Of a stretch of DNA of 64,000 nucleotides, positions 12,601 through 48,600 are shown in pieces. Source of the DNA: Sipunculus nudus (lineage: Eukaryota > Annelida > Sipuncula > Golfingiida > Sipunculidae); NCBI GenBank assembly GCA_026874595.1, contig CM049308.1, positions 26,460,367 to 26,524,366 of the forward strand, in the 5' to 3' direction. The notes beneath the pieces are model-generated. The model was not told the DNA's origin and made no database searches. It saw only the letters and a list, made by a program, of their open reading frames with translations. The translations under genes were made by a program, and so were the position numbers. Positions within the stretch are counted from its first letter, which is position 1; each line of letters opens with the position of its first letter.

Positions 12601-15459
12601 TTCTATCCTGCATTACCATTTTTCCCTTAAAATGTAATTTTCACAGCAAAAAAAAAAAAAAAAAAAAAGCGATGGAATCGAGGGAATAGAACGGAGTATA
12701 GTGGGAAATAGTAGGTGTATCAGTGTCAGCTTATATGATATAAACTGTATATCTCGAGAAAATGGTTGGCAATGGGTGTTTAGAGTGGATACTCTTATTA
12801 AATAATAGGTAGGTGGCAGATTAATTTATAAGAAATCGAAATATTAATTTATCCCGTAAAATACAGAATATATCACTCTAGAATGTGGGGATAAATTTGC
12901 ATTCTTAATGCAACAATTTGTAGCATCTTTAATTATTTAATTTTTTTATGTCAACAGGTTGTTACGGCAGCTATATGGCTCACTACTCAGCCAAGTTCTC
13001 CGAAGCAGTCTCTACCGGGGCATCAACCACTTTCCACGCATGCGCCGCAGAGTGTAAAGCAACGAATTGCAAGGCGGCCCTGTGGAACCGTCTCGGCAAC
13101 ACTTGTGGCCTGTGCACATCTGCAGTTTCTGAAGGCTCACTGCAAGTGTCAAGCTCGTACGTCTCACTGCTTCCTGATGCCCGGTGCACTTCCGGTGAGT
13201 TACACAGCTTGACCAACATTAAATTCCTATCTGATTTATAGTACGCCTATTTCATTACATAAATCTTTTCGCACCAAATCCGTCTTCCCAAAGACAAAGC
13301 CCTCGCTGAGCTACGCTCCAAGAGACCTTGCTCTGTTTCTGGCCGCTTTGCCACCTATTTTGAGAATTTTCACAGGCTTGCACCTTATTTAACAAGGATT
13401 TTGTATGTCTAATATAAACTCCTTGATTTAAACAATGATAAAATCTAATAAAAATATCCCCTGGTCCGGAAAAGCAGGGGTCCAGGCCGCAAAAAATGGT
13501 CTTAAACCTTTTAAAAAGGTTGTGGCGGCTGGACCCCCTGCCCAACCCTTTCTGTTTAGGCATAACGAATAATGAAAGAGCCCTTTCACTGGTCTTGCTG
13601 TGGGGAAGTTAGCCAGTCAGATGTCGATTAATTTATTTCTGACTTACGATGTTTCACTTTACATGAGCTCGGCCGATAATTAAATGTTGAAGATCTGTAG
13701 CTCAATATTTTGTTTGATGGTTATATGTCATCAACGTTACGATACAGTATCTAAATCTGTTTTTAAAACCTGTATCGAAAGACGATGTATCAATGTGAAA
13801 TAAAGTACATCAATTGCACCAAACACCCGGACCATATAAAGCTATATAGTATTGTAACTGTAGCCGGGTTGGAATGTCCGATGTAAAATGCTTTTCATGG
13901 GCATGTCGATTGTTTTAACATGCTCCGAGGTGCAGCATAGGTCCTGGAATGCAGACACAAGACAGACGCTTAACCGCCTTTATTCAAAGCACTATGTGCT
14001 AACGACCTTCCTTTACCGTAGGTATCTGGTAACCAATATGTCATCATACGCCCCCAGGTGGCGCTATTTACATGCAAAGGCATATTATAATATCGATTTT
14101 TTTATTTAATAAGAGTAAATCCGCTACTGAATAATTATAGTAATTAAATTCATTATTAACTAGATTAATAATACTTTCTTTGTTCTTTCAGAGTGTGCGG
14201 GCTCTTTTGCCGTGTACAGATATCAGAAACTCAAAGTGGGTAGGAGCATCGGCAAAGTAGAGGAGTACAACTGTCACTCCGCGTGTTCCCAGCAGACACG
14301 TGCTGTGTGTACTGCGTACACTTGGGATCACGTTTCCAAAGACTGCATGATTGCCGGCTTGGGCGAGTACGATGGTTATGAGCCTTCAGACACTGGGCAT
14401 ACCTTTGTGGAAGAAGAGTCGTGTAGAAGTAAGTCCATATTACGTTAACCCCCTTTTTAATTACCTATAACAACAGATGCCTGGTCAGTTCCTTATGAAT
14501 AGGTCCATCATAACAAAATGAACCCTGCCAGTTAGACAGTGTAGGAAGACAGGGACTACTTTTTCACCTGTTACCTGTCAAAATCATTTTCTTTACATTT
14601 CAAGGAAACAACTTGTGTTAATATTTCAAAAGTGTATCCCAACCAAATATTACTTTTTCGCGAAGTCCTTACCACAAAAACTCTCATGTTTATTTAATTT
14701 ACCTTGAAACAATTCTTTGCCAACATACTTAAAAAAACTACATTATCCTGTTCACTGCATTTATATCTACGCCGCAGGTGTATTAGGACGCTCCAGGGCA
14801 TTTTGTACCGCAGATTTTGAAGCCAGCTTGTGAGTCCGATCCTGAGCAGTGTCACTGTGCAGGACCAAATGTGATGAGAGATTTAGTTTTGTTTTCTGCC
14901 ACTAGACTGCAGCACGTGTCATTAGGCGGACTGAAATACCTGGACCACCTTGGTTTGGGTACCTATGGTGAGACGCCACGAAACGCCCACTTAACATCAC
15001 ACACAGAGCCAGAAAATAGCATGGACTGAATACTTATCATGCACTTGTTTATAGCAGGTTATTTCCTAATATTTATATTTTCATGTGGCAGAATAAACAC
15101 GTTTGTTTTTGTTTGCTAGCTGGTCTGAAGTATTATTTAACTCACCAGCCCATGTGTTTATTGCTGAAGGAGCGCCTGATTTCCTCAACTACGGCGCTCG
15201 TCTTTTCCTTCTTTAGCTTTTTAACCCATTTGTTTAATTTAATCCGGGTTAAAAACTAAACACAGGTTTTTTTTTTTTTTGGTTTTCCAGTCCAAAGATT
15301 TTAATTTTAAGAACTAACGCCTAAATTGTAACTTCCAAGCCATCTACCCATCCCTCTGACACCCAATTACGCCGCACTCGATGACCACGGTATACAAGAA
15401 GACAGCATTCCAGAGTATCATCCGATCTGGGCGCGAATACGACTCTACTATTTTTTCTT

Positions 15460-18658: not shown

Positions 18659-21600
18659 CCATGGAAAATCTGAAGAAAATCCACTTGATAAATTTTTTCA
18701 CAAACTTCTGCAGACACAAATGCAAAAATACTAAAATCACAGCTATCTAACTCGATAGAATTTCTCGGTAACATAGTTCAGCCTAGTGTCATGACCCTGA
18801 GTCACTTGTTTTAATGCACAATATGTGTAATAGCATAATATAATTAATTAATAAAAGAGTAATACCTGAAATATTCATCTATTTTCGCAGTGGACTTGTC
18901 CTATTATTCTGTTGGTGGTGGAGCAATGGACCTCAAAACTACATGGAAAACCCCAGGTACTCTAGTGGTTGATATGAACAGTCAGTTCAAGTGGGGAGGA
19001 ACAATTGTGAGCTTTAAAGGATTCTTCAAAGCTGCTGGCAGTTTCCGCTTTGTGGTATGTATCCCAATTTCCATGTCTACAGGGCCTGTGCACCTTGTAT
19101 GCCTTTTTTGCCAAAAAGAATAGTTCAACCAGAAAGGCTTGGGAAAATGTCAGATGACTAAATTATTGGTGACTTAATATCTTTGTCCACTTTCAATATA
19201 AGTTACCATAAAAATTGCAAAAATAAGACTTCAGACATGATGTTGGACAAAGTTTCAAATTTGGAATAACTTTCACTTTGTGGTCACTTAGATGTCAATA
19301 TAAAATACAGAATCATTTGATGAAGTAAAATATTGGGTTTTTTTTATATAGTAAAACAGTTATGGAACATGAGAAAAATTAACAAGTAATGTTTTTTAGA
19401 TGGTTTACAATTTTGAACTTAAAAAATACTGTGATGAAAAAAAGTGAATGTGGCTTAAATAAAGTAAATGTGGCTAAAGTTATAGCTAAACCTTATTGGA
19501 AGGGAGCAGACCACTTGTGTATAGGGTGGTTTTAAATAAGTACTGCTATTCCTCAAACAGCAGTGTCTTTTTTTGGCAAATTCTTTTTTTTGGGTTGGCA
19601 ACTTGATTTGTCTGTTATCGACATTTCTCAAATGTTTTAATAAAACTTTATATGAATTTTGTGAAGGGCTAAGGTAACTCACAATGAACAATTCCTTATA
19701 TACATAAAAGCGTTGCCTAAGTACCACCTTGTTTAGGGACCATTTCAAGTAGTGACCACTTTTTCATGGTCCCATTTCTGTTTTGCTCTTTATATCAAAC
19801 CTCACTGAGACAACCACCTCGAAAAATGTGACCATTTAATCAAGGTCCTGTTGCAGGGTTGGGTTTTATCCGGATAAAACTTGTTTTATACAGGACAATG
19901 GATAAAACTGGTTTTTTATCCGGTTTAATCCAGTTTTATCCGAATTATACAGGATTAAACTGGATCAAACTAAAAATCTTTTTGTAAAATGTAATTAAAT
20001 TAACATAAATGCTTACTTATCTTGATAAATAAATTCAGAAGCTTAATTAATATATTAACAATATATAAGTTTTATATCCAATTGGAAATTTCCACCAGGT
20101 TCATGTTTCACTGTTGTCAGCAGCCACTATAGCTTATGCTCAACACACACCAGGATGAAGAGCAGTCTCTCTTGTCTTCTAGGTTACTCTTCTGGTTAGT
20201 TGTCAATTTATCAGTAGGATTTATCATCTTTATAGCATCATCCTCAGCCATCAAATATTTACTAAAAGTCACAGGTCAGGCTTATAGGGTGACTTTTGCA
20301 TCCCAGTTGTCAACAACTTATTGAGTCTCGTGAAGGAGGATGCCAAAATGACTTTTATCCAATGGAGGTTTCTCCTGTCAGGCTGTCATGACTGGCTGGT
20401 TGTCATATGGTAGCCCACTGTAACTGCTTGTGTAAACAAGCCTTACCAGTTGGGAAAGGGACAAGGAATCACACTACCACCCAACTTTCAGAGAAAACAA
20501 CTGGGACGAAATAGCTTTTCAAGCATTTTATCATTTGCGTCTTTAAGAGATCACCCCTATAAAATTATGGACAGCTGAGGTAACTGTATATCTTAAGTCA
20601 TTTATGCAAAAAATGACTGGATTATGTACATCTCAGATGTAAGAATAGATGTTAATCTGTGAGTATATGATATTCTATGGTACCATTGATTGCTAAACGA
20701 AACATGTGTGAACTGCAGTTGTTTATCCTTTTTAAAATGAAATGTACAAAATAGGTGATAATGTTCAAATAATTCACACTCTGACTGACCTCGCTAAAGA
20801 AGAGAAATAATTTCAAGTTTCAAAATTATAATTAAATCATGGCATCACTATCTGTGATAAAAAATGCTTTTTATATATGATATATGGTCACATAATAATT
20901 AAGTTAACTATACACAAATGTTTCTTATTTACACTGTATTATTTTACAGTTGAAAGCTAAATTTAATATAAAATGTCTACTTCACAGACAGTATACACCC
21001 AAACTTCAGATAAAACTGGATAAAACCTGTTTTATCCGATCCGGATTAATCCGGATTAATCCAGTGGATTAAACCGGCTGCGGATAAAACTGCCAACCCT
21101 GTCCTGTTGACAGTTGTAATTTTGAGGTTTACAGTACTTTGTAAGAAATCTTGGTCACTATAGTGTGTTTTTGCCCAAATGATTTGTTCCCATTATGAGA
21201 TAGTATGGGTGGAACCAGGTTTTAGGAAAAGGGGGTCCAACCCAGGATTGCTGATGACAAAACCTCTAAAAAGTCCCCAGGTCCAGAAGGGGGGGGGGGT
21301 CAAGGTCATAAAAACTGGTCTGAAACCCTTAAAAAAGGTAGAAGTGGCCCAAAAAAGGGGGAGGGGGGTCTGGACCACCTGGACCCCCATGCATCCGCTT
21401 TTGGAATAGGCAGTTACAATCCCCCTAAATCAAACGTTTTACAGGTATAAAGTGTCAGGTTCAGAATGTGTAAATATGCATAGTAATTACATAATTAAAC
21501 CATCTTTTACTTCTCAAGACCAGCTAGTCTTCCCTTTTGAAAGTATATAGACACTTAAAAGGAGTTTTGAATCCCATGAAATGGTAGTGAGGTAAGTTCA

Positions 21601-24600
21601 AAGTTCGAAGAGGTTGATGGGATGGATAATTGCAATGGTACAAACACAGAGTTTGACTTAGTTAATGATGAAATACATGTCACAGGACACCTTTGAAATA
21701 TTACAAGTATAATACATGGGATATTTAAGTTTTCAACATCTGAAGCAGTAGCTTAAAATAGCTTTAGACTTAAATGTGCCCTTGTCATGGCTCGATGTTC
21801 AGTAATTGAAAGATAGCAAACAACTGATGAGCAAGTATTAGGCAAAAAAAAAATAAATAAAATGTATAGTTCTCAGGCACCGCCGGCATCAGTTTTACCA
21901 ATTTCAGCTCCAGCCTTTCCGACATTTCTTTCAAGAAGTTAAAATCATACAATTTTGATAAAATTTCCTTTGTTATGTAACAAGTGCTTTTGCTTGTTTA
22001 GCAAAATAAATTTGTTATTATCATGATTTTCACCTAACATTCGAAATTTTTATCGAAACACAAAAAAATAAAAAAAAAACACCTGCCCACATTGATTTCT
22101 TGAAAAAAAGTGCCTGTGAACCAAACCTTTTTTTTTTTTGGCCTTAATCATTATTCTTATGTTTCTTCTGTTTTACCATAATATTATATTATTTGCGCTA
22201 TCCCTTAAATGTTGACCAAGTAAATACTTGGACATCATGCTGAAAGGTCAAGTAATGGCCAAGCTGTTGACACTTGCTCACTGCACAAGCTGTTCACTAA
22301 TTCATGTCCCATCTTTCTAATTCCTATAACTGGATTAGAATATTTTTCTAATAAATATTTGTGATCGATTTAAAAAAATGCAACCAATTTAATGTTGTTA
22401 AAGAGAACAACCAATCATTGATATTATTGCTTAAAATGCCCACCACTTCCAGTGTCGCCGCTGCTTATCCCATTATTTGTGAATAACCAGTCTAGTATCT
22501 CTGTATGTCTGACTTTGATAATCTCAAGAATCTGCACAATCAGAGGTCAGAAGACTTGTGACAGGCATATAATGCACTCTTGCATTGCTAATTCTTTTTA
22601 TTTTAATAATGATATACATAAAGAGCTCACATGTTATATTTTTTTTTACAGATCATGAGACCCACAGGTACTACAGGCAGTTTCTCTGTAGTTAGTTTCT
22701 ATGACATCGATGTAAAAGCTAAAGGCCTGCTGGCTTACAACACCTATAAACATGATCCAATCAGGGTGGAATCCGGGGATCTGCTAGGCTTTGTTGCAAC
22801 CAAAGCCCAGGTTACCTACGCTACAATTGACTGCAACGGCCTGACAACGCAGTTTACATACACTGGTGGAGATTCAATCAGTAATGGTGGCACATATACT
22901 TTCTCAGCAAGCCAAGTTTGTGCCAGCTTCTCTATCTATGCCCGGGTTATTGCAGGTAAGATGTTAAACCCAGGTCTTTATAATACTGAGAAGGAAAAAC
23001 TTGACATCTAAAATGTTAAATTTAATTGCACCCTAAAGCTAAGATCAGGGCTTCCACTGTGTCTGATTCTTGTATTTCTTATAGATTCATAGAGTTTCTT
23101 ATGAAAAAATTGTCTTCTGTCATTTCCTGTATTTTCCAGCTTTCAGATAGTAATCTCCCATATTTGTCTATATTATTTCACTGAACAATATAGATCCCAG
23201 TGTAACTATTAATACAGAACATTTTTTTTTCATATGACCTTACATTATTGAAAACATACAGCCTTTTTGTAAAACTGGAAGTGAGTGTAATAGTCATACA
23301 AAAAAAAACTAAAACCCATTAGAGCTTTTGATGCTGCTATTTGAACTTATGGTCACTGTTAGTTATCAAGTAAAACATGATTATGCAGTGAAAACCCCTA
23401 TGTTTTTCAGATATTTCTACCTGAAAATTACTATAAACTCGCATAAAATTGTCTCAAGTGCTCTTATAAAATTCCTGTATTTCTCCTTGAATTCCAAGGG
23501 AGACCTGTAAGATTCCAAATGCATGGAATGCACCGTGCTGATGTTGATTGTGAACCAGAGATTTCATATGTTGGTAGCATGCTACATATTCTACCTCTGT
23601 TGCATCTGGTATACAATGCTGATCCGGCTCTGCTGCATGTCGTGATTTAGCTTCCTGGATTTTCATACTGCATGGCAGATATTATGTGCATAAGGCATCA
23701 CAAAATCAATACTTATTTTTATCAGCATTCAACATGCAGCATCTCTTGTTTGCACCACTAAAGTCTTAGTTTTACTCCTTCATATTTGCGTATGTCTAAA
23801 CCACCAAAAATCTTGGTTTACCCAGTTTAATCAGCTGGCCTTAAGCCTGTCCAAGTCCACACTCAAGTCCCCAATCACTGTTTTCAACATATGGCCTATT
23901 TCTCTCAGCCTTATTTTATCAACATTATGGCCTATTTCTCTCTGCCTTATTTTATCAACATTAGAATCTATTGCTCCCAGCCTTATTTTATCAACATTAT
24001 GACCTATTGATCCCAGTGTTATTTTATCAACATTATGCCCTATTGCTCCCAGCCTTATTTTATCAATACTATGACCAATTGCAACCAGCCTTATTTTTTT
24101 CAACATTATGGCCTATTGCTCCTAGCTGTATTTTATCAACATTATGGCCTATTACACACATCCTTATTTTATCAACATTAGGACCTATTTCTCTTGGTCC
24201 ACTTTTAACAACATTAGGACCTATTTTTCTCAGCCTTATTTTATTAACATTATGACCTATTTCTCTCAGCCTTATTTTATCAACAGTATGACCTATTTCT
24301 CTCAGCCTTATTTTTTAAACATTATGACCTATTTCTCTTAGCCTTATTTCCTTAACCTTATAACCATGTCTCTTAGACTTATTTAATCATTTTAAGCTCA
24401 GCTGACGATAAGTTAACTGAGCTATAGCGATGGTCCTTTGTCCATTCATCTGTCCATCAGTTAACTGGCATGTTTTGAAACCATCTGACATATGAATCCG
24501 AAATTTGGCATACATTTAAATGTCTCCGAAATCTCCTACCATACCGAAAATTGGGTCACTAGTACTTCATTCATCTAGATATTAAAGAAAAACCTCAAAT

Positions 24601-27600
24601 TACCATTAAAAACCCATTGTTATACTTCAAGACTGCCTTATATCAAAACCAACGCTCAGTTTTTGATCATATATAATATACATATTCCTTTATATATTTA
24701 TAATAAATTTTTACCTTTATTTCTGCTTAAGTCTGTTAAACTTAGTTAATCAGGAATATAGGGCAAATTTTTTGTGGAATTAATTTTTAATATGGCCATA
24801 TATTTAATTATGGAAAACTTAATTTAATTCACACATTTTTTGTTAATGAAATGTATCCTTTCATATAAAACTTAGGGCCATTTTTTTGATATTGCATCAT
24901 TAAATGGGTTCAGGCCACAAGTTTCATTTATTGTACAGTGAAAATGCAATTTATACTTAATTGATTTTGTTTTAACATGCTTATTAAATTTTGTTTGTGC
25001 AGATTTGAATTTTTTTACGGCATTTTATTTAAGGTAATAAATTAATGTTTATTATTATTATTTTACTCATGTCCTTTATTCTATAATTTCAAAGGGTTTC
25101 ATTTTACCAGGGCCTTTTCCTCTTAGCTTATCAAATGCTAATATATATGAAAAAAAGTATATTTTGCATTTGCTAAATTTTCCCAAATTCAGCTGAGCGA
25201 CATGAATCAGGGGTCCATTGTTTTAACTTGTGTTTCATAATCCTTTTATCAATATAACTTTAATTCTTATTTCAGCTGAGTATGACGTTGTCAAAATTCA
25301 GGGGGTTTCCTTGTCAGAATGGAATGTTGAAGATCTACGGGACTTCACATATGAAACTTGCCTTCGTTATTGCCTGGGAACGGACAACTATCAGTGCCAG
25401 AGTGTAGAGTTTGGATCTGAGTTTTCCGGTCAGTGTCTAACCCAGAATGTCCTGAAGGAACAAGCTGCGAACTACTGGGACGACAAGTGGACAGCTTACT
25501 ATCACGCATACTTTGTGCCAAAGGCGGGTGCAAACCAGATTAGCACCACCATCACAATTGACTTCAGTGAGTAGTTGTGAAATACAGTTTAATATCTCTA
25601 GCATGACATCCTGAGGGCCCAGCTGGAGTGGTATTGTGAGCAGGTTGGTTGTGTAAGTGGGAAGTTTTTATGATGATTTTCATTGGTCTAGGACCAAAAA
25701 TGATGGTCTTCTTAGCAGGCTGGTTGTGATAGAGTGGTGGTCATCACATGAGATTTCACTGTAATTTTAAGGGTCTCAGTATTATTGTCTCATGAGTGTG
25801 TGATAACATTGTTTAAATTTTTCCTTTTATTTAACAAACTAATACTCTTTGGTCCCTTGACTTGTACACATTCTGTGAAGGTAAAGAATGTCTTTGTTTT
25901 TTTTTTATATTGGGTAATTTTATTTAGATAATTAAAAAAATAATTGATTTCTGGTAATTGAAAAAGATTATTTATTCCAGCAAACATGTAGCAGATACAG
26001 AATACCTGCTAGCAGTATGTAAAAATATATTAACCCCCTGCCAGTTATTTTTTTCTGGGGGGGGGAAAGGATTTCAAAATTATGAATTCTTTGGTTTTTT
26101 AATTTAAAATGTACATGAATATTTTTTTTTTATTTTCATCAATAAGTGGCTTCCTGTGACAAATAGGCAAGAAAAAATAAAAATATTCATATTACAAGGT
26201 TGAAAACAGAAAATTTTGCACCAAAGATGGTTGAGAAATATTCATTTAAGATTAAAATATTCAAAACAAGTAATTTAAATCTTTAAAATTCAGCCTGTTT
26301 TGAAAAAAAAAAATTGAAAATTTTTTTGGCAGTATACTGTTAATCCCTTATGCAATTCGGTCTTATTTTTTTGTTTGTTAAAAATCAGTATATACAAGTC
26401 ATATCTTTCATATTATGTGTACAGTCTGCAAAAATAATCTAATATCAATATTTTTAAAATTGATTTTGTTGATTTTTTTTCAGAAGTAAACCTGTATCCC
26501 CAGATAGTTGTGGCAGCCTTGCCAAAAATCACGACTACTAGTATCTACATCTTTTCGACACTTAAATTTACGGGAACCGGAGGCTTGTCTGCTGTGTCAT
26601 ATTTTGCTCAACAAATCGGTACCTTTTATATTGGTGTCTGGCGTATAGTTAAGAGTAAGTTAACTCTGATCGCAAAGGTTCGTGTATACGCCGGATTTGT
26701 GGGTAAACAATACTTTTCCTTTGGAACAACGGCTATCGCTTTCCAAAAGGATGACATGCTGGGTTTCCATTACCCGGAGACTTTCCACAAAGAGTCTAAT
26801 GGTGTTGGAGTTCTTGCTTATGCTGATACTACTAGTACCCTCGTAACGGCTGCTCAGTTACAGTCATACTACGTCATCAGCGGAACATTTGACGAGGCAA
26901 TGCAAAGTGGATTTTCAATAACGATACCTAAGCCAGGACCGGGGAAGATCGCTTGTGCACTTCAGCCAGTCACAACAACAACAACTGGTAAGTATTATTA
27001 ATACCTCCACTAAAAAATGATCAGAGTTTATATTTTATTCTAATAAGTTTTTCTGTTCAATTGAACCTGTGGGGGTTGAACTTTGTCCCATAGGCTTGGG
27101 GTCCCTGACGTTCCTGTGCCCCACATATGTTTATCATTCACTAATGAGTGTGTCTTTAGGGGTTCCTCAGTGTTATAAACCAGCAGTAGATGTGATTACA
27201 TTCAGAGGACCTGAAGAGCAGTAGACCCCTGGCCAGGGTGATACGAGGATATAAAATGAGAGGAAGCTAATTGCTACTGCCCTATCACATAGTCCCAAAC
27301 CAATATTGAAATATGCAATTGCACATACTTATTTCAAGAATTAGATGAGTCAGTGTTAAAATATGGAGGTGGTTACATCCACAGAAATATCTTTAAAACT
27401 AATTTTTAAAAGAAATAAAAAATTTATTCAGAAATCCCATTCTGATTGTAATTGCAGTTTGTCTGCTGTAACTAGATTATTCTTGTTCTGCAGGTAATAA
27501 GTGCAGCCTCTAAGAGAAACTTCATTATGTGAAGACAACTTATATTGATATTTAAAAAGAACTTAATTCATTATGCTGAGAAGCAATGGAGGATAGGCTG

Positions 27601-30600
27601 TTGATGATAAATGGCATGTTAAACCAATGATTGAATGTAGAACTACTTGAGGGGTTAAGCAAGTAATATGGATAACTGAACTGCTATGGTCATCCATCTG
27701 GGTGCATTGATATCTCTCTACTCAGGTAGTAATCTTAATATTGGATGATGAATGAGAAAAAAGTAATACATGTTAATGTACAGACCAAAGGGTTTATCGT
27801 AGACCCAGTTAAGGCTAGCTCTTTTGTATTACACTGGCCCAGTTTGTATGCGTAATTGTTGTTACATTGTAGCACCTAAGTAAGTCTGGGGGAGAAATGA
27901 TATGACTGGTTTGGTAAATTATATGACTAATTCACACTTGTCATGCCTCCTGGCATTAACGAATGGGAAAGTGAATCTGCAGAGAGGTATTAATGCCACC
28001 TGTCACCAAACAGGTTAACTAATGGTGTTTTCCATTGATGTCAGTAGTTATTGGGGTTTCTCCCAGAATTTCATGGCCAGACTAGCGTGGGTCATTCAGT
28101 GGTGTGGGTAGTCACTATCATTTCCACAACAATATTTGCTCTTGACTTAATGCATGACAAAACCTATATGTAAAAATGCAGGATCTACCCGAGTAACTGT
28201 TAGTATGAGCTAACTGTGAAAGCTAATCTGTAAGTAATCTGACAAATCACTCTTATTTAAAAGAGTCACTCTTTTTTTTTCAATATTCAAAAAATGACAT
28301 TAATTACTTTTTTCACTCTTTTTTTCAGCAGCACTTTTTCCCCCTCTTTTTTTCATGAAAGAATTCCAATAAATACTATTTATCTCCTACTTTAACAAAC
28401 CAGTAAGAAAATGTATCAAGAGTGTAGTCATTGTAAAGAGTACTTACCCAAGTCTAAGTTAGGTAATTATTAACTCTGATAACTATAGTGCAATACTTTT
28501 AACCAGTTTCAGCCCAATTTTAGTTCCTTTTTTTTCTGTTACAGTGCCACAGCCTCCACCAGCACCAACACCTAAGCCACCACCACCACCACCAACTCTA
28601 CCACCTGCACCTGTTGGTAAGTTAACCTGATGTTTCTATAGTTACTTACCTTTTATATAGAATTTGTGTGATTTCTGGCTTATCAATACATTAAGGGTCT
28701 CTGAGTAAGTCTTGTTTAGAAAAGTTCGTATAATGCATCTGTGATGGAAGTATGCTTGAGCCTGTTTATCTGCAAGCTGTTTATCTGCAAACATCCATGA
28801 TGACAAACGGTAAAAAACATGCAACTGAAAGTGGTTGGTTGCATGTACATGCAGAAGATAAAAGGTCATGTCACAAAAAAGCAATTTGCAAAACTGATTT
28901 GTCAACTTTCCTCCAGATGTCTTTGTTGAATGTGTTTGGATTATTTTGGCAGGGCCCCACATTTTATAAACACATGCATAAAAAGGAAATGAACAACCTG
29001 TGTGCAGTGAGATTGGCATTTTCTGGTCTATTTTTATAAAATGTTCAAGTGATTATCTTTAGTAAATAGACATCAGATACCAGAATAGTCCCTTTTAAAC
29101 TTTTCAAGTACCTTATATGTATTAAATAAAGATTATTCTTTGGACTTTTTTTAAACAGGCAAACAACCGCTGATCCAATGTTGCCCAGGTTGATAGCATA
29201 TGTGGGAGAGCCACTAAAAATTTAAAATGCCAACCGATCATAATCCATGCATGTCCAACAGTGATACCAGACGAGTTTTGAAAGATGGCTTTGCTTCACA
29301 TGCTGTTTTAACTGCCAGAAGCTAGTGACTTTCAACATAAACACATTTCTGGTCAATCTCTGTTACATGGAATTTTAATTTTTTAGCAAACCTGCGTCAT
29401 GCGTCGTGCGTCATCTGTACTTTAACCATAGCTATCTCAAAAACGGCAGGAGCTAGCATCACCAAATTTTTTTTGCAAATAATAAGTCATCCAAAAAACT
29501 ATATCAAATTTTGTTTATTTTTTTTCTAACTGCATTTTCTTAGATTTCATAGGGAAAAAGCTAAAAAAGTTTTAAAAATCTTCTTCTCCAAAACTGTCCA
29601 GCCAAATTGTCCAATATTTCACAGAAATGACCTTGAACAGTCTTTCTCAAGTTTGTTCGAATGGTTCAAGTTCAGAGATTTTTGGTCGAGTTACTGGAGG
29701 TTGAACTTTGTTAACTGTGCAAAAAAGCATATTAAAATTTAAATCTCAGAAACGGCTGGAGCTATCATCACCAAATTTTATGCCAATGTTGGTCACATAG
29801 GTCATATCTGAAATTGAGGTATTGGTGGCGCCACCTGCATCGGCCTTTTTTTGTACAGGGTCATCAGTGCCTGTATCACACTGAGGGCTACAAGAAACTT
29901 CTTCTCTGAAACCATATGGCCAATTTGTTTAATATCACACAGAAATGATCCTAATGTATTGCTTTCTGAAGTTTGTTCAAATAGTCTCTTTTCAGTGATT
30001 TTTGGCTAAGTTATGGGAAGCTGAATTTAGTCATATGCCATAACAGCCCATTTTAGCTCAGTGGCTACAAAGATCTTCTTCTCAAAAACCACTGGGCCAA
30101 ATTCTTAAATCTCACACATTAATTATCCTCAGATGTTGTTAATTCAAGTTTGTTCAAATGGTTTTGGTTCAGTGCTTTTTGGCTGAGTTACGGGAAGCTG
30201 AACTTAGCCAGTTTGCTGTATCTTCCTATATGAGTTATAAACCTGCGAAACGTTTTTCAACGGATGCCACTGAAGCCAGTTTGTTAAATATTTTACAAGA
30301 ATAATCCCTACAATAATTCTTATAATAATTGTCATTAATGGTTCCACATGAATGATTTTTGGCTGAATTATAGAGATTGAATTGAGTCATTTTACCATAT
30401 ATGTTAGCTGTGTTATGCTGTTACATCTAGCCTGGCACCAGTTTATCAGCATCTATAACATCATGTCACTAGACATTTAGATTTCAAGTTATCTTTGGTT
30501 AATATTGACAAGAAAGTTTTTTTAAAAGCTTTTAAAAAATTTAGATTTATGATTTAAGTTATTCATTATACCATACAATGTTACAATCATGGATATTCAG

Positions 30601-33600
30601 CTCTCTGTGGCTATATAAAGACAACTAAACGGGATTATAAATTATTGGTATCCCTACTCAACTTAATTCAAGAATTTGCCATCAGTGAGATATATCTGTA
30701 TTTTAATTTTGCATTCAGTATGCATCTGTAATAATTTTACATATATTCCTGATTTCTTTTTTTAGTTCAGCTGACTATAGGTCATCTGAGCTATAGTCGT
30801 GGTCCATTGTCCGTCGTCGGTCCGTCCATCCGTCCGTAGATGTGGCACGTTTTGAAACCGTAAGACCTAGGAATCCGAAATTCAGCATAATGTTAGATGT
30901 CCCCAAGATCTCCTACCAAGCCGAAAACTGGGTCTTTGCGACTTCGTTACTTTGAGAAATTAAGGAAAAACCTCAATTTTTTATTTAAATCCTATTTTCA
31001 CACTTCAGGACTGCCTAATTTCAAAACCACTCATCTGTTTTTCCTCATATTAACCATAAATATTCTTCTATATAGTTCCTATGTACATGCCAGAAATTAA
31101 GTCTGTTAAGTATAAATTCTTTAAGTTATGGGCCAAAACATAATGGACTTTGTAAAAAAACAGGAAAAATATTTACTCACCTAACATGAAAAATTTTGAA
31201 ACTAGAGTCTATTTTCCCAAGTATATAACTATGTTTAATTAAGATTCAATTGTTTACCCAAAATTAGATCTGAATTTTGTAAATTTTTTAAGTAATTAGC
31301 ATAAAAATAAAATCAGTACCTTAAATTTTGCCCAACTTTGACCATGGCACGTTTTTTTCCTGTAAGTACCATTGATTTAATTTTCACACCATGTAAACAT
31401 AAATATTTAATTTGTTTAAATCTGAAATTTGGAAGTAAAAGCTTGAAAATTAAGCTAGTTATTGATTTTTTTCTTGAGGCTCTATTGTAGTCATTTGCTT
31501 TGATTACAGATTACAGATGCAGGGTCCCACTCCAGGTCACTGGAAGTCAGCTATGCCAGGGTTTCTGATTTGTTACAGTCACTGGGGGAGATCCCCTGCT
31601 GTGACAGGTGTTCAGTTATTCTGATATCACCACCCCAATCCCCCCCCCCCCCCCCCCCCCCCCCGCAAACCCAACCCACCAAGTGTTATGCAGTATTGTT
31701 ATTGTTTTCACTGTATCTCCTTAATTGTAATGCTGTTTCCACTCTGATATGCAAAAGCTTTCCTTAAAAAAGTAATTCAAGGTGTAATCCAGAAGATGCA
31801 ATGTTGTGTAATGTAGCATTTTTAAAGAAATCATTTTTCTTTTAAATGATTTTACCAATCATAATGGAACCCATCAGTATGCTTAAATTATGATAAAATA
31901 TGAAGCACATTATGGATAAATAAAGACACAATTCAAAATTGTGAAATCTAAATCAAGTATTTTTTTTAGACATTTATTGTTTTGCAGATTTAAAAAATAT
32001 ATTTTTGTGGTAAAAAATAAATAAACATTTGTATGCATGATGTGTTGTTATCTGACAAGATTGAGATTTATGATGATGCAATTGAGAATTATGAATCAAC
32101 TTTTATATTCAGATATATATGTTATATTGAAAATGTATAGAAATATAAACTTAAATTAAAAAAAAAATGATGTGATATAAAAATGAGGATTAGTTACAAA
32201 CATTTGTTCATTATTTTCCTGCATCAGCAGAATTTGAGATCAGGCTTTGTTTGCCATGTTTTATGTTGTTAATTAGTTATATTTCAACTGTATACATTTC
32301 ATAAAAAAACATATTTAATAATTTATATTATACAAAAAAAAGATTTGATTGAACAAATGTGTAAACTACTGAAATGTCAACAGTTAATCGAAAAGCCAAC
32401 TAATGATCATGGTAATTGTACAGATCATTTGTTCACAAACTGCTCACATGCTTCAGTTTCAACATTAGGAAACACATGGTCAGGTCACAAAATATTATTT
32501 GCAACAATTTCTTGCTCATCAATACAAACCAATCATATAAACCAACCATGGCCTTTATTACCTCTTCCTCTTACACTTTATCTCCATTTGATATTATTTT
32601 AGATTTTTACCTTCAAGGTTAACATCAGCTGAGCACAGTGACCCATAGGTCCCTTGTTTATAAAAAGTCAGCTGAAAAGCATTTTGTATTGGGAAAATAA
32701 ATTTCAAAGTTAATTTAAGTTGATGTTAGCCATTAGCCAAGATGATGTCAGCTCTATAAATAGTTTTTGAATAGTGCCAATTTTGGAAGAAGTGCAGCCA
32801 GGTATAGGTCAAGAGTTCACTCAGTGCAGTAGCTGCATTCTATTTATAGCTTTGGCAGACTGCTCACTGCATCATATTTGGCACCAAAGTTCAGCCTGAA
32901 TCTATTTATAGCTTTGGCAGACTGCCAGCTGTGTCAGATTATGCAACAGGTATAGAGTTCACTCACTGCAGTCAGGTACAGGTCAAAAGTTCACTCAGTC
33001 TAGCCAGGTGCAGGTCAAGAGTTCACTCAGTACAGTAGCTTGAGGCAGCAATTCGTCACAGGTCACAAGGGGGCAACTGCCTTACTCACCTAAGCCTGGT
33101 CAGGCCAATGCGTCAAACTCTGGGGAAGTTTGATGTATTGGACTGATATTTTGACCAGTCTATGTGCCTTTGATGGTATTCTAATTTACAAGACAGGATT
33201 GACTTTTGCAGTGTATGCACCTGCTTATTTCTACAGAGGAATTTGATACATCAGCCTAAAATTATGCATGTTTATACATATAGGGTAGCTTAATAGTGTA
33301 CAGGACTGCTGGCACCACCTACAACAATTTTTGCACAGTGTATGTCCCTGCTTATTTCACAGGAGGGGTTTGACATATCAGACTGACATTGGGCATGTTT
33401 ATATATCTCTTCGTTGTATATAAGACTGGTGGTGCCAGCTACAATCATTGTATCCACAAAAACAGAGTTTTGCGGAGACTATGTTTTCAGCCGGACGCTG
33501 ACGCTGCCACAATCGCCGCATAGGTTTCCGGAGAACTCCATAACTGCTGGGCAGAATTTTTTAAAATTCAGAATTATGATGGGTCAATTTTGGTTGACCT

Positions 33601-36600
33601 CTGACCTTTCATCTCTGCCCAGCATCCATTTGTGCGTCAGTTTCCACACATAAACCCACATATCTCTGGAACCATTTGACCGATAAGGTTAAAGATTTTG
33701 TACAAATGTAGCCCTTGGAAAGCTTTATAACATACACTAAAAATAGTGGTGCCACCTGCAACCATTTTTTCACAGCGTCCATCTGTTCATCTGCCTTAGG
33801 ATAAAAACACTCATATCTCTGCATTGGTTGGACTTATCTATCTGAAATTTAGCATGTGTATACAACCTGGACAGTTTTCTTGATTTTATGATAGGTGGTG
33901 CCATCTACATTCACATTTAAGCTGCAGACATCCAAGCTCATATCTCGGGAACTGTGTGACCAGTTGGGCCAAAATTTTGCATGTGTATAGATCTCCCATA
34001 GCTCATTATCATACACAAAACTGGTGGTGCCACCTGCAACCATTTATGCACAGGGTCCATCTGTTCATCTACCTGGGGATAAAATCACTCATATCTTGGC
34101 AGTGGTTTGACTTAGCCACCTGATATTTTGCAGTTTATACATCATTGACAGCTTTCTTGATTTTATGACAGGTATCGCCACCTTCATTCAAATTTACCCT
34201 GCAGACATCCAATCTCATATCTCAGGAACCATTTGACCGATTGGGCAAAAATTTTGCATGTTTATAGATCTCACATAGCTCTTTATCATACGCAAAAGCG
34301 GTGGCGCCACCTGCAATCATTTTTGCACAGCATCCGTCTGTTTGTTTGCTGTGGGATTAAATCACTCATAACTCGGCAGTGGATTGACATGTCTGCCTAA
34401 AATTTTTCAAGTTTATACATCTTGGATAGCTTTCTGGATTTTATGCAGGTGGCACCACCTACATTTATGTATACGCTGCAGACATTCAGGCTTATATCTC
34501 AGGACTGGTTTGACATATCCCCCTGAAATTTTGCATGTGTATAGATCTCACATAGCTCTTAATCATACACAAAATTAGTGGTGCCGCCTGCCACCAGTTT
34601 TTGCACAGCGTCCGTCTGTTTGTCTGCCTTGGGCTAAAATCACTCATATCTCAGTAGTGGTTTGACTTATCTGCCTAAAATTTTTTCATGTTTATACATC
34701 TTGGATAGCTTTCTGGTATTTTGGCAGGTGGCGCTACCTACATTTATGTATACGCTGCAGACATTTAGGCTTATATCTCAGGACTGGTTTGACATATCCA
34801 CCTGAAATTTTGCATGTGTATAGATCTCACATAGCTCTTAATCATACACAAAATTAGTGGCGCCACCTGCCACCATTTTTGCACAGTGTCCATCTGTTTG
34901 TCTGCCGTGGGCTAAAATCACTCATATCTCAGTAGTGGTTTGACTTATTTGCCTAAAATTTTGCATGTTTATATATCTTGGACAGCTTTCTGGATTTAGT
35001 GGTAGGTGGCACAACCTACATACACTTTTCGGTTGCAGACATCCAGGCTATTAAGCAACACACCTCACTTTATTTCCCTTTGCCACTCAATCCATGCCTC
35101 ACTTCACCTTTCCCACTCTGATTTTGGAGGATGCACGTAGTCGCTTGTTGACTACCCGTATTCTAGTTTTTGTGTTGTGTGCACCCATGCCAGAATTGCA
35201 ACAGTGATGTTTGTTTAATTGTTTCTTGTTCTAAGTGTTTAGTACCTGCATTGTTCAGATACATGTTACACATGTTCTTGAAAAGTAATGGTCCAGCATT
35301 GAAGCATTATACCTGGTGTAATCTCATTGCACAGGTTTGCATTAGGCCTGTAGGCCTTGTTTAATATGGCATGTGCTGTTAGCTATTTTTTAGATAAACA
35401 AGATAACAACTTGTAACAGGGGTGTAATAATATTTTTTTTTAATAAAGATTATTTGGAATTCATTAATATGAAACCAGAATTTCATAAATGCAACAAAAA
35501 AGGCAGATGAATCACTGGTTTTAACTTTTTAATTTAAAAATATAATGGAATTTTATATGAGAGCATTGTGCTAAGATATCATGTAATTGTAAATTTTATG
35601 AACTTCATAATTATCTTAGTATATGAGATCATAGATGTACCCTTTAATCTAAAGGATGATGTAACCATGTGCTTTAAGTTTCTTAGATTCAGTAAAACCA
35701 TGCCTAGTGACCAAAGTAGTTTGGGAACCACCTCAAAATAACAACCATTTTTTAACTGTCCCAATTCTCTTTTGCTCTTTATATCAAACCTGGCTTAGAT
35801 GACCACTTAAGAAATGTGACTATTATATCAAGGTCCTATTCGTGGTTTAATTTAGGGAATTCACTGTAATTTGTCACAATATGGAATTGAATTGAATTTG
35901 TTCTCCAGCACACTATAAGAAAATGTTCTCGACCAGTGAACACACTATCATCCATATGGTATTTTTTAATGTGCATGATCTGTTGAACTTATCACTGCCA
36001 AAATTCCCCATTACACAAATACACACCCCACAAACACATTTAATGAAAATTTCATTGCTGACACCAATGTAAAAGAGATTGGCAGTGGTCAGAATGGAAG
36101 TCAAATACCCTCTGGCCCCTATCTGGGGAAAGGGGGAAACTTCAGTGTAATTCGTTAATTCCGAGGGAAAATACAAAATGACAAAATATAGCAGCAGCTG
36201 ACAACATATAAAATCTGAAGTGTGATCGCATAAAGACCGTTTGCCCAGACGTATAATGGATATTTAATGATAATAGCACTTAAATAAATTTTCTTTGTGT
36301 AGAGTCATTAAGTTCTGTGCATTTTCAGGTGGAGGCGGTGGGGGAGGTGGCTTTTTACCCCCAGGGGAGCCAGTCGGACCAGGATTTGGGTTTATCACTC
36401 CACAGGCTGGTGGCATGACAATGAGACTTCCTCCAACGAATGCATACCTGCTGACCACTTTGACAAGCAAATTTACAGGGCGACTCTCACAACTGTCATT
36501 CTTCACCTTCATGTCTGGGTCTTTCACCTTGTTCATTGCAAGACCAAACCCAGCCCAGACGGGTTCATTCAACATTATATCGACTTTCACAATCACCGTT

Positions 36601-39600
36601 CCTGCCCCAACTGCAGTCCCTGGCTATGTTGTAAGTATTATGGTAATCGTAGTAATGTACATTTTATATATATGGGAGCATACCAAAACAGGTTCATTTG
36701 GATTTTTAATGAAAACTTGACTGATGGATGGAAGAGATTCATAAAATTGATGTATTAAAATTTATATACTTGAAAATGTACTTATTATACGACTAAGAAA
36801 TAAATACCACAGGAGACTGTTAAGAGTTTAAAATATTTCATATGAAATAAAAAAAATATACATTCTGCCACCATACATGTAGGTAACCAAAGAAAAACCT
36901 AATCCAGCGATGATTATATTTTTCCAAAATTTTAATAAATTAAAGATTATACAAAATCCAAAATTTTATGTACAGTTTGATATTGCAAATTTCTTGACAA
37001 GAAATTAAAAAAAAACCTCAAACCTTATTCCACGAAACCAAATGTTACACTTCAGGACTGCCAAATATGCTGTTGTAAATAAGTACACAATCACATCTTA
37101 TAGTTTATTTAAAGAGACCGTTAGCCTTTAAAAAATGACTTAAATACCTGCATTATCATTGAGCAGTTTTCAGTATTGAAAGGTATGCCACTGTGACATC
37201 TAAAGGTGCTGCTACTCTCAATTTATTTTAAAGTAACATATTTTTTGGAGGCAAGATTTCTTTGTATACTTTTTCAAGAATTAATACTTTTTATACGTTT
37301 TCTAAATCATCTTCTGATGGTGATTAAACGCTGTTTACCTGAGCCAATTAAGTGTAATGGACACAGTATATCATAATAATGGCATTTAATTTGCAATATT
37401 ATGTTTTCTGCGATCTTGCCAGTATTGATACCTGAGGTTTGTTTTGAGTATTTGTATGCTGTAAAATTGTCTGAAAATTGCCCTATTTGGCATATATTTA
37501 TACTTTTTTTCATACTTTATTCAGATAATTTTATACTTCTTTCACGTAAGATTGTATATTGTATACTAAATCCATAGTAGCAATAGTATACTGTCTACAT
37601 AGATCTTTTATTTACTTTCACTAAACCCCACAAGTGCTCACTAACACAGATCATTATCTCATTTACATTCAGTCGTCGCTTTTTTTCAGACTTTCCGTTT
37701 CCCAACCGACAAACGACCTGATATCATGACAGGTGAAATCTTCGGAATCGACTTTCCAGCAGGCATGGGACAGGGACTGCTACCAGTCATGTACCAGAAT
37801 GCTCTCCAGTTTGGCATCACTTCAGCACAGCTAACAGGATACATCCAAATTAACCTCGGGGTCAGGCCAGGTCAAATGATCACTGGTGGAATCGCAGGCA
37901 ACATCTACATCCCTATGTACTTCACAATCAACGAAGGTTGGTGTCCACTTTTCTCATCATAAATGTATGAAACTTATGTCATAAGTTAGGACTTTATTAA
38001 CCTGGGCAAAGTGAAGGTTATTGTTTTCATTTGATTCTGTGTGTGTGTGTATGTCCGCATTATATCTGGAGACAGTATAACAGATGTTATTGAAATGTAT
38101 CATATATGTTGGTGTTGTGAAAATGTCCAAGAAGTTTAATTTTGTGTAAATCAAAGTGTAAATAACCCCAATATGAGTGTTGAAGGGTTTTTATAGCAGA
38201 CATGTTTTCACTAGGTAACCAAATAAAACATTATTTTGTAATGACAAGCACCAATATTTTACATATAATAATGGATGAAAATTCCTATGAACTCCTTTAT
38301 CTATAAAGTTCCTATATTCTTCAGGAACCTCTTGGGAGACCTGCTGAAAAACAGGGCTCTACAGAATGTAAATATCTTTATGTATGTAGAGGATTTGTCA
38401 GTGTTGTTATGTTTTTTTGTCTTTGCAGAACCGTTGTCCCAGTTGGCCTGGAAGTTTGACATTTCTGCACTGGTTGGAAACCTTCTTAAGCCCAATTCCC
38501 CCGGTGCACCATCCTGTTTAATAGGAAAACTCATCTCCTTTGTAACAGGACCGAATAACGCTCCACAGTCTGCTGTTGAGTTTAAGGGCTCCATAGACAG
38601 CCTTATCGAATTCCCAGCAAATTTCCAACTGGATTTCCGCTACTCCATCAGCGTACATTTATCCATGTACCTGACGCTGTTCCAGAGTGCTGTACTTTTC
38701 CAGTATAAAGATGTCTACGATGGCGTTGGTGTTTTCATGGGATTTTTAGGTCTATCCTTCATTGTACCAACTCGGGGAAAACGACCTAACCCAACTGCTG
38801 ATGCAGTGTTTGTAAATCGTTTAAGGATTGGCCTGTTTGGCTGGAGGGATCTCTTGGTAACCTATGATTACCATCAGAAACTAGCCATTTTGCGTATCAC
38901 AAACAGGAACATCATTGAGCAGAAGAGGTTCCCTTTCAGTAGGGAGATTGCAACCCAAGGCACCTTCACCCTGGGAGGCTGCAGAACAAGGAAGCACTAT
39001 TACAAAGGAAAAATAGGATGTATGACTATGGTTGGCACTGCTTACTCGGCAGCCAACGCAAATCTCAAACCATCAGCATGTGAACACATGCGTAAGTATT
39101 TTTACTCGTGTTTTATCAGTATACTCCATTAACATGTATTTCGGGATTTTTTTTATCTGATAATTCACTAAGGAAAGATGCTTTTGAAGCCTCATACCTG
39201 TGAGCCTGAACCTGATTTACAATATAAAAGCTACCTTGCAAAATATTTTAGTGATTAAATCAAATTAATAATTGAGGAAACAGTCGGTTTGAGACCTGCG
39301 GTCACATGAAAACACTGAAAATAAGTACTCGGCAAAAACAAAAATGACCCACTTAAATACTAAGTATTTGCATCTGTTGCTTGCTATCTAAGCAGAGAAA
39401 CTGGGTTCTCTAGTCGGTTCCACAGTAGGGTGCCCATTGAAAATTGGCAATTATTTTCTGAAACTAAAAAAATCATGACATGTTCTGACCTTAAAGCTGA
39501 TGAGGGTCCAAAGGCCTATTATGAGATGTAAAACCTCATAACAAAAACCAACATTTATATTTTGCAACCCTTTGGTTCTTATGAATGTTGTTGCCAAGTG

Positions 39601-42600
39601 ACATGGCGTCTGTCATTGGTTGCAGACAAATGCATATTTTAGAATATTTATGACCAATTATTGGCCAGTCAGGAGTGCAGTTGTTTGAGCATGTGACCAT
39701 TGAGATTAACATTCATGAATGGGGATGAGATATTGTAAAAAATAGACTGTTTACTCAGATATTGATATAATTGCATAACTTATATATTTCCCAAGATATG
39801 ATTTCAATTTAATTAAAGTTAATTGGGCCAGTACCCCATTCCTTCATTGCATCATACCATCTGATATTAAACTGCAGGCTCATGAAAATATTGCCAAATT
39901 TCAAAGGGCACCCAACTTTGGGACAGGCTATAGTACAGTTATGTTGGTGTTGACAGCATTTGTTAGGACACATTGACACCTGTGACTTTAAGGGGTGGGG
40001 AATACAGACTGAAAGGTTCTGGACCCTTTAGTGTAATACTAATAATAAAACTTAGGCCACATAAAATAAAAGATATGGTTCTCAGTCACTTGGCATCATC
40101 AATTTAACCCCCTTCATCTTAAATGATTATTTTGATTTTCAATAGGAACTTACCAGTTTTGAGCTCCAGCTACTCTGATATTTTTTTCCAAGAAGATAAA
40201 ATAATACAATTTTGATATTAAAAGTTTTCCTTTGTTTTATAGTGCTTTTACCTGTTATTATCTGTTATTATCATGCTGTTCCCTAATCATATGACAATTT
40301 AATCGGACCATTCGAAAAAAAGAACATTAGGCCATCACGCACTGATTTCTGTTAAAAAAAGTGCCTGAGAACCCAACCTATTTTTGGCCTAACAGGCCAT
40401 TCACATTGTCTTGCGGGAAAGTGAAGGGGGAAATTATTAGTGATTAACTCTTTATTAATGTAATAACGGCTTCTCAAAGGTGGAATTTAAAAAGCATCAG
40501 CCACATATTAAATAGACCTTTTGGAATGTATAATGACAAATATTCATGAGGGTTCCCCTTGAAATTAAACCGGTTTTACAGGTTTGAGTTAAGCGCATTT
40601 AAGTCATTGGTTTTGGTCCGGTTTCATGATATTTTCAAGTTGCTGATATTTCATGTAAAAGTGGAAGCATTTTTGTCTTTATTTATGTAGGCAGAATTAC
40701 TTATCAAAATGTTAAAGCAGATTAACTTAAGGGAACTTAGTGTTCAGAAAAATAATTATATATACAGTTGCATCCTTATTTAATAATATTTCTATACTCT
40801 ATAGTATGCTTGAATATAGGAATGTGGATATCTTGGAATGACAGGTTGTTCTTAAATCAGTACCAAACATAGTGGATCCCCACAATTATGACCACAATTA
40901 CAAAGAAAAAAAAATATAAATTTAAAAGTCAACATATAATTTGTTATTATCCCAGACTAATATTATTTTTTTAAATGACTTCTTGATTTTAAAGAAAAGT
41001 TTTTTGCCAAAGTTGCTACTGTAAGTGTCATATTCAGATGAGAACAAACTGGATGTAAACATCTTTACAGCAAAACCAACGCCACCCAGGCCACCAGTTT
41101 GTGGGGTTCGACCCCCTCTGCCTCCAACACGTCCACCTTGCAGACCACCATTTGGCTTTGGTGGATTTAAACCTCATTGCTCCCCACCAAAAGGACCCCC
41201 TGGTGGCTTCGGCTGGGGCGGTGGCTGCCGTCAAAGGCACCCATCCCCACCTAAAGGCTGTTGTGGAGGACATCATGGTCATGGACACCACCGTGGACAC
41301 CATGGACATCATGGACGTTGGAAGAGAGGTGCTGTCGAGCCACCTCCCCCACAGCAAGGCGACTTCATCTGCTACATCGAGGCTTCGGGTGTGGCCACGA
41401 TGACGCATCACGTCAAGGTGTTATGCGGAGGCACAGAAGTCTACGCCGAGTCCGTACAGGAGGAAGCTGGCGGCCCCAGCCCCATAGAAGTTGTAGCTCC
41501 TGCCGATACCGTGAGAGACTGTGACCTGATCAAAGATGGCGTAAGTTCAGTTTTATTGCTGTATTTGATTTTGTAATGAAACACAGATTAAAGATAAGTC
41601 CAGATTATAGAATTCCAGTGCTTTAAACAGGCATAATTTGTCAACAGTCCCAATAGTCAGAGGCACATTTGGAAGGGCCTTAGAAAATGAAATCAATGTT
41701 TTGCATTATTGTATAATTAAAAATACAAGATTTTGGATACAGTATATTGCATAGTTTTGCATAACTGTAAGGAATAACCCAATAGTTTGTGAGAACCTCT
41801 CATGATAAAATGCACCATTTAGGGATAAGCTTCAGTTTCTAATTCAGATTAATGAAAAGTAGCCCATGTCATGTAATTCTGATATAAAATGCTACAACCT
41901 TCTATTGAAAAAGCTTCAGTATATATAAACATTTATTTAATAAAAATACAGGGAAAAAAATTCATGATTATGTATTAGATTAAATGGACCCTATCGATCA
42001 CCTATCTTACCTGTATAAACAAAGGTAATGCCTTGTAGCTATATCACTGCATGCTGGCTGCTTCTTTTGTTTATTTCAATATGTTTATATTATGTGGGGG
42101 GCCCACTAAAATAATCAAAACAAAACCAAGAAGGGCATCAGGCATCAAGTCAGCTAAGCCAGAGCTTTTCAAATAGCGTTTTGCAACAAGTGACCTGTCT
42201 ACCACCAAGTATATGCATCCTACCACCTTAGGTTACATGTTTTTCCTGTTTGTCAACATTGCTATGTTTACAAACATGCTGTTGATAAACAAGTTCATGC
42301 ATTCTTCACGAAGGCTTTATATAACTTTTCACAACCAAAATGTCCCTGAGATCATTAATATATTAACAGAGGAAGCCAGCAATCACATAAATTCTTTTTC
42401 AAAATATGGGTGAATAGGCACCTATAAGGAGATTTTTAGCTGTGCAAGAATAGAATTATTAATCATTTAAATTAAAAGTAGCATGAGTGTGATAATCCTA
42501 CTCTGATCCATCCAAACAATATAAAAGCAAATTATTACTGGTCAACCAACTACGTCAAAGTCAAGCTGTAATCACACCTAGGTCTTTGTGGGCCATAATT

Positions 42601-45600: not shown

Positions 45601-48600
45601 TGAACAATTCTGGTTGACTGTTCATATATTCCAGTTGGGCCCAATATCTTTTGTTGTAAAACATTGAAACTACTGAAATTGTGTTCATTTTATATTATGA
45701 AACATGGCTCTGTTCCATTCAAGATCATCTCTTTTTGTCATACACAGATTAAGTTCTTTTCTTCTAGTCTCTAGTCTCTAATAATTAGTCTCTACTCAGT
45801 AAGAGATAGAACCAAATGTGTAAAATACACTGAGAGTATGTTATTTTCTTCAAATGGTCTGTGTTCTATTTGTATTATCTCTAACACTGAGAATATGTTT
45901 TCTGCTTCAATAAGTCTCTGTAGTCTATAAAACTTAATATCAGGCAGGGATTTAAATGTACCCTTGCCTTACACCCCAGGGTAGGTGACTGTGGCTTTAG
46001 GGCAGGTGAAAATATGTAACTGCCTGCCGGATAAGGCAGGCAGATTTTCCAACCAATCATAAATATTGGAAAGCAATCATTTATGCCTATGACCAATGTT
46101 GATCACGTCAGTTTGACATGAAAAAAATGACTCTTGTGTATATAATTAATGGGCAGTTTTACTCAAATGGTATGCATCATTGTATCCCCAGGCAGAGTCG
46201 GGATACTGTGGCTTAGGCACAGTCGCACTGCTGCTGCAGAGTTTCTTTCAGGCAAGATAACTCGAAAAGTATTTCACAGATCTTTACCAAACTTGACATG
46301 TGCATAGATATGGGTGAGAGGACAAAGTCTATTGAAAATGGGGTCATAATGGTTACTAGGAGAGTGACCTTGACCTTAAATAGATCTCTTTTCGGAGAAA
46401 ATCATACCAGTTCTTGAATATCTCAAGAAATCTTGCATGGATTGATCCAAAAAACAAGTTGACAGAAGATCTTGGATTAGTTAAAGAACAAATGTACATA
46501 TTTCTTTCATATAATGCATACACATGGGTTATGGGATGAGGTATATTTAAATTGGGGTCATGACCTTTCTTTTTAGAGTGGCCTTGACCTTGAATATTTC
46601 CAGTTTTGTTAAAAATTACACAAAATCTTAAATATCTCAATAAGAGATGCATGGATTGATCCAAAAATTAAGTTGAAAGAAGATTGCTTTCTCTTCTGTG
46701 GAAGACAGGTGGCTCAACCTTCTGTCCTGTTGAATTTTCTTGTTTTTGCACCTTTTGTTACCCCCTTCATTGCCACTTGATATTACTGTGAACATTCTAA
46801 GTAAAAAACTAATGGACAAATTTCTTTCATATTATGCATATACATATATATATAGGTTATAGGATGAGGTATATTTAAATTGGGATCATGACCTCTCATA
46901 TGAGAGTGGCCTTGACCTTGAATATTCCTATATTTGGTGAAAAATATTGTTTCTCAGGGTGACAGATGGAAGATACCATGGTTGCTTGCTAAGTGTCAAT
47001 ATATGCTTCTGAAGATGGGCCTATTCTTAAAGGAGGGGGGGGGGGGGGTTAATTGTCTGGGGATAGTATGGTACCAAGAAATTCTAGTTGATATTTGTTT
47101 CTGTATCATTGATTTCCAGAGTACCCATTTCATTCACTGGAAATAATTTTCCGAATGAACCCTGCAAATAAATCTCTCTTAATATCCCTAGAATGAAATC
47201 TAAGTGAATAAACTTCTTGAGTCCTGAAACAGGTTATGAACTGAACAAGTTTTGAGGAATTAATTCTCCAAAGAAAATGCAGGGCAGGTGACAGACACAA
47301 TTTGGCAGGTTAATTTTATCAACCAGCTGCTAACTTTGCAGATAAGAAAATAGGTCCTTGTCTAACCCTGTAATCACATCTGTGAAACCCTGAGAATATG
47401 TTCAGTTTATAAACATTGTTCAAATTGTATGATACATGGCACATCATGATATTTATTGCCAGATATATCATCAATTTCTTTCACTTAAGACACAATGAAA
47501 TTGTGGACTTTTCTCACACAGATTTCTAGTCCATTGACGATATCAGTTGAAGAGGGTGGTGATCCAGGCATCATTCAGATCCAGCTCGGAGCCCTGCCGT
47601 CCAAGATAACAGGCGACCCAGACGGTGAGGTTGTGATCACTGCTACCGTCACTCAGGAAGGGACACCATATAAGTGCACTTATGATAACACTGTGGAAAA
47701 ACCTCAGGTCGCCATCAGCTACCCAGTGACAATCGATGGCTACTCTGTCTGTGGATTCACTATCACCGATATGACCTTTGAAGACACTTGGGATATGAAT
47801 GTCATCGCAACACCTGATTGGCTGAAAGATGGCGATGCCACCGTCACTGTCACAGTTGTTTCAAAATATGTTGTTGGTGGCACAGTAACCTCTGAGCAGG
47901 AAGTTGGAGTGGTCACGGTAAGGATTTGATCAAATACCTTATTATTGAGGCTACCAGAGTATGAAAAGGGCTACACACTTTAAATCTTACACACAAACAC
48001 GTCCAGAGAATTTTCTTGAAAAGATTATATTTCTTATCAAAAGAATATTTTTTCTGTTGACAAAAATTCCTCAATATATTTTTTCTTGATTTATAGGCAG
48101 TATGCTTAAAGTCAACAAAATATATCTAGATTTTCTTCAGACAAGATATAATATCTTATCGTAAGAAAAATTTCCTTTTTCTTAAATACCGAAGATAATA
48201 TTTCTTACCTTTAGATATCTTTATCTGATTGCAAGAAAAATTATCTGATCAGAAGAATAAAATTCCTATCAAAAGAAAATTATCTAGGACAACTTGATCA
48301 ATTTCTTGCAACACTCCCTAGAAAATTTTTGAGCCATAATATATTTTTCTTATATAGTAAGAAAATTCAGGGAGTGAGGGAACAAAATTTTATCTTTTTT
48401 TTTTTTTTAAATTTTTTTTTGGCAGTGTACTTGAAAATCAGAAATATATTCATTGTTGCTTTTCCTTGAAAGCCATTAGGGTAAACATATAGGGAACAGC
48501 ATATGTTTGTGAAACAAATCTGGAACCATAAAATTTAAATTAAGCTTAAAATTTGACCATTAAAATTAAATTAGCATGCTCGATTTTATAAACATATGTG

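Follow-up and report, generated by a model that had tools for sequence, protein, structure and literature searches.

A repeated domain family missing from the domain libraries tested, in a giant matrix-type gene region of Sipunculus nudus and in a few bacteria

A giant matrix-type gene region of the sipunculan Sipunculus nudus contains several copies of a domain family, here called X, that is missing from the libraries tested. Three copies (X1–X3) lie in the window, i.e. the whole stretch of 64,000 nucleotides that was analysed; others were found further along the same contig, on five other contigs of the genome and in nine bacterial genomes. Its occurrence in an animal and a few bacteria, at times beside sugar-binding domains, suggests that X probably serves in binding or adhesion outside the cell.

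The window gene and its modules

X1–X3 belong to a multi-exon gene on the + strand of the window, of which exons 1–11 (9515–39091) provide 1036 open codons joined in phase. The order of modules in these exons is signal-peptide-like, two PAN-type, X1, PAN-like, X2, Pro-rich, X3 and laminin-G-like, and the product is probably a secreted protein. The exons and the regions that follow them are:

9515..9602, +, exon 1, putative signal peptide (by eye), in phase with exon 2
12958..13194, +, exon 2, PAN-like, PF00024 stretch jointly with exon 3
14192..14428, +, exon 3, PAN (PF00024, frame), carrying the better of the two exon 2+3 stretches
18891..19054, +, exon 4, first part of X1, phase 1 to 0 (GT-AG borders, frame)
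22652..22955, +, exon 5, second part of X1, phase 0 to 1 (borders, frame)
25276..25566, +, exon 6, Cys-containing, PAN-like by eye, between X1 and X2 (splice borders)
26484..26987, +, exon 7, whole of X2, single phase 1-1 exon (borders, frame)
28545..28616, +, exon 8, Pro-rich linker, phase 1-1
36329..36630, +, exon 9, Gly-rich linker and first part of X3 (borders, frame)
37690..37936, +, exon 10, second part of X3 (borders, frame)
38429..39091, +, exon 11, laminin-G-like
41071..41540, +, exon with a Pro-rich and Gly-His-rich stretch, then an Ig-like piece
47522..47917, +, Ig-like module (by eye), ahead of the VWD-like region
49008..50197, +, VWD-like region of three exons, first border approximate
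57757..58010, +, PAN exon (PF00024, E 9e-10, 38.7 bits, above the 21.4-bit cut-off)

Exons 2 and 3 jointly matched PAN in two stretches (E 3.8e-6, 27.1 bits, also above the cut-off). Exon 6 matched 0 Pfam families at E≤10, PAN PF00024 included, and for exon 11 no Pfam match to Laminin G or ConA-like families was obtained. The VWD-like region scored under the 22.9-bit cut-off of PF00094 (E 0.0062, 17.3 bits). We take the Gly-His-rich stretch to resemble metal-binding His-rich structural proteins. Within exons 1–11 the borders between modules are of phase 1, as in exon-shuffled proteins, and both phase-0 introns sit inside X1 and X3. Exon 1 was left out by the computed exon chain, which stays in phase from the window as far as X7 (see below), but with stops and restarts (exons were probably missed) and with four terminal exons after the start of the window gene. 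A single gene holding all ten X copies of the contig is thus only likely. Scanning the window for Rfam families and for tRNAs yielded 0 and 0 matches.

Copies of X in the animal genome and in bacteria

The genome searched comprises 1.43 Gb in 153 contigs, the window's contig being C3. Searched with an HMM built from six copies, 6830 fragments yielded four further ones (X7–X10, E 7e-14 to 2e-19). This brings the total on C3 to ten, spread from 18.9 to 125.3 kb in window coordinates and in part arranged in tandem runs such as X4-X5-X6-X9-X10. In the flanks of the window that were read, 186 kb downstream and 90 kb upstream, the ten-copy HMM found no other fragment below E 1, the two remaining rows being at E 1.3 and 7.7. 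A short open fragment of C3 upstream of the window (L023 2369–2515, +) contains an X-like run, FYRVSGDDFMFAYGRPDGG, at E 1.3 and was not counted as X.

Homology of the copies was assessed in leave-one-out searches, in which the ten copies were tested with nine-copy HMMs among 8425 fragments. Eight of the ten were found at E≤8e-14 (X2, E 2e-17), and X1 and X3 only weakly: exon 5 of X1 at E 9e-5, exon 9 of X3 at E 4.5e-4 and exon 10 at E 0.015. Exon 4 of X1 was missed (E 2.7); it is found by HMM searches that include X1. The row ranked as best non-X match in 9 of the 10 tests (L005_3_170) is itself part of X, namely the end of X8, which a locus border had separated from the rest. Separate exon pieces of X did not align properly, and those alignments were set aside. 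The copies are 14–31% identical to X2, with the signatures R-P and G-D-x-x-G; their invariant or nearly invariant columns are Gly and Arg only, and no ligand site can therefore be read from conservation.

Whole-genome tblastn at E≤1 gave 6 places for X7 and 21 for X9, on C3, C4, C7, C12, C13 and C15. Twelve of the 14 places outside C3 were read, and all 12, preselected as they were by tblastn, encode X (ten-copy HMM, E 5e-17 to 2e-11). Together with the ten on C3, this amounts to at least 22 copies in the genome. Clusters of close paralogues were seen at 72.37–72.44 Mb of C7, 48.29–48.33 Mb of C4 and 52.52–52.53 Mb of C12, where identities to the L038 copy are, for instance, 63 and 78%; they indicate a more recent expansion of the family at sites other than the window gene as well.

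Bacteria were searched with an 18-member animal alignment (A8), starting from 20 genomes that hold DUF4082 (PF13313). Two of them responded at E≤1: Archangium lansinium (9.2e-10) and another, at 0.04, that was not counted. Samples of the phyla of three of those genomes, for which the labels myxobacterial, cyanobacterial and proteobacterial are our own, were then searched at E≤0.001. X was present in 2 of 193 myxobacterial genomes (the Archangium genome included), 6 of 386 cyanobacterial ones (phylum of a Nostoc genome) and 1 of 398 proteobacterial ones (phylum of an Azohydromonas genome), 9 genomes in total. The bacterial copies (E down to 4.1e-15) are intronless, measure about 130 residues and occur once per locus in the loci examined. 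They lie within open frames of 119 to 1904 codons, several well over 1000, and those scanned mostly have bacterial-type domain neighbours; the long frames and these neighbours argue against animal contamination. The rare, scattered occurrence suggests that X may have spread by horizontal transfer. Phages (query X2) and plasmids (query a cyanobacterial X) gave no match, four scans of viral contigs confirmed no relative, and PHROGs searched with the three window copies returned a single match at E 0.21.

In the reciprocal search, an HMM of six bacterial copies, themselves picked by the animal profile, gave 20 rows at E≤1 among 8584 animal fragments. All were X, 16 of them at E≤0.0013; X2 was found at E 1e-7 and exon 5 of X1 at E 0.1, and X3, X5 and exon 4 of X1 were not recovered. 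This search and the leave-one-out HMMs establish X1, X2 and X3 as one homologous domain and refute the explanation that their likeness reflects chance or composition, to which we attach practically no weight. The sequence-only reading had placed an unassigned domain, diverged long ago and probably a binding unit, three times in one protein. This reading is supported and the repeat is real; the count was too narrow, with ten copies in 107 kb of the contig and X also elsewhere in the genome and in bacteria.

Known families, domain neighbours and the possible role of X

The earlier impression that X matches no known family held in Pfam, NCBIfam and the PDB. For the 18 of 22 animal copies scanned, no Pfam cut-off was reached (best E 0.031), and NCBIfam gave two isolated sub-threshold rows (best E 0.014, sda_mono, 14.2 bits against a cut-off of 345). 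Sequence searches of the PDB with X2, X1 and profiles of 3, 6, 10, 18 and 11 members returned nothing or unrelated molecules with a best E of 0.39–1.1. The X part of the myxobacterial protein had no Pfam match, and Pfam matches of the cyanobacterial proteins all fell outside the X core. In the titles and abstract openings listed by the literature search no such domain is described, which is not proof of its being unpublished.

X might belong to the bacterial DUF4082 superfamily as a remote branch, sharing its fold and probably its role, a relationship that we consider tentative. Profile comparison aligned a colinear core of about 60 columns, and in one test the combined animal and bacterial X profile matched DUF4082 at E 0.003 with 0 of 150 column permutations scoring as high; the hhalign probability was, however, just 10.5%. 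With the 18 animal copies alone it was 1% (E 0.057), a score equalled by 7 column and 24 block permutations out of 300 each. Only 2 of the 18 copies matched DUF4082 in Pfam at E≤10 (best E 0.031), the member shown scoring 13.5 bits against a cut-off of 28.4. The conserved GTHxGxLW and ETASGWQ of DUF4082 loci are both missing from X, which has its own two signatures instead. The DUF4082 structure model is confident, whereas that of X2 (alignment A4, which also held pieces of exons 4 and 9 from the window) is unusable, with a mean pLDDT of 32. In Foldseek the best DUF4082 match had an E of 2.2e-3, and none reached E≤0.001.

Neighbouring domains were determined by Pfam scans, covering L127, L128, L129, L131 and L132 of the cyanobacterial loci and L126 of the myxobacterial ones; L130 and L133 lay outside these scans. 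X was accompanied by Laminin_G_3 (1.9e-28) and Tectonin (3.5e-16) in L127, Laminin_G_3 (3.4e-58) in L132, Jacalin (7.6e-17) in L131 and the lamin-tail domain LTD (1.6e-23) in L129; in the part of L128 scanned no neighbour was found at E≤0.01. The myxobacterial neighbour is of serine-hydrolase type and no lectin: in L126, X sits behind a Beta-lactamase domain (PF00144, E 5.5e-40) with a sub-threshold DUF3471 match. The architecture of L124 resembles that of L126 by eye. In the animal the neighbours are Laminin_G_3, EGF and PAN, with laminin-G-type exons directly 3' of X3 and X8. Laminin_G_3 adjoins X in both animal and bacteria; X itself has no sequence match to Laminin_G_3, Jacalin or Tectonin. 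The VWD-like, Ig-like and EGF parts in or beside the X host protein may resemble those of VWDE-like large matrix proteins; VWDE is not known to contain an X domain.

On balance we lean towards X as a mobile, non-catalytic, lectin-like or adhesive extracellular beta-sandwich in one or more exon-shuffled matrix-type proteins. X would be a unit of about 110–150 residues, probably compact, with the PHR or lectin-like beta-sandwich as a candidate fold class. It would have been shuffled as exons, mostly single phase 1-1 ones, and would recur within a very large secreted protein, or across neighbouring ones, beside parts of PAN, laminin-G, Ig-like, VWD-like and EGF type. The many weak contacts made by repeats of X, laminin-G and PAN could anchor the protein on glycans or other matrix, and the VWD-like and Cys-rich parts may link chains. 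The lectin-type neighbours strengthen the binding role that we infer and do not prove it, since a structural spacer would keep the same company; the hydrolase-type partner in the myxobacterium, L128 with no Pfam neighbour in the part scanned, and the unusable X2 model also count against the binding-module reading. Such a spacer or self-assembly unit, which would separate binding domains or polymerise with other X without a ligand of its own, fits the very divergent sequences, the restriction of near-invariant columns to Gly and Arg and the tandem runs. It would be less expected in bacteria, where in the loci examined single copies stand beside hydrolase (myxobacterium) or lectin-type domains (cyanobacteria), and we judge it unlikely. 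The bolder version of the binding reading, an undescribed cross-kingdom carbohydrate-binding (lectin) family that moved between bacteria and animals and among bacterial phyla, with at least 22 copies in one animal genome and a 10-unit array in one giant matrix protein, is possible, though we rate it as less likely than not.

Since Pfam and NCBIfam miss X, annotation is lacking for stretches of matrix or adhesion proteins in animals and of lectin-like proteins in bacteria; the present alignments suffice to seed a family model, and the short intronless bacterial copies are handy for structure and binding tests. Should X bind glycans, it would represent a new lectin family and a candidate adhesive unit; should it not, a new matrix-building unit.

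Repeats and other features of the contig

At 7160–8185 the window contains a long repeat region with several open frames on the - strand and APTGAVLVGYFGIYRCSFGW-type repeats, which appears minisatellite-like and not a gene. A second minisatellite-like stretch, with short repeats and both strands open, lies at 23831–24314, and an open frame at 58397–58879 resembles a retroelement fragment by eye. Downstream of the X gene, at about 152450–154188 of C3 (window coordinates), an array of repeated TPTTNRHPADTV units is open over 196 and 136 codons.
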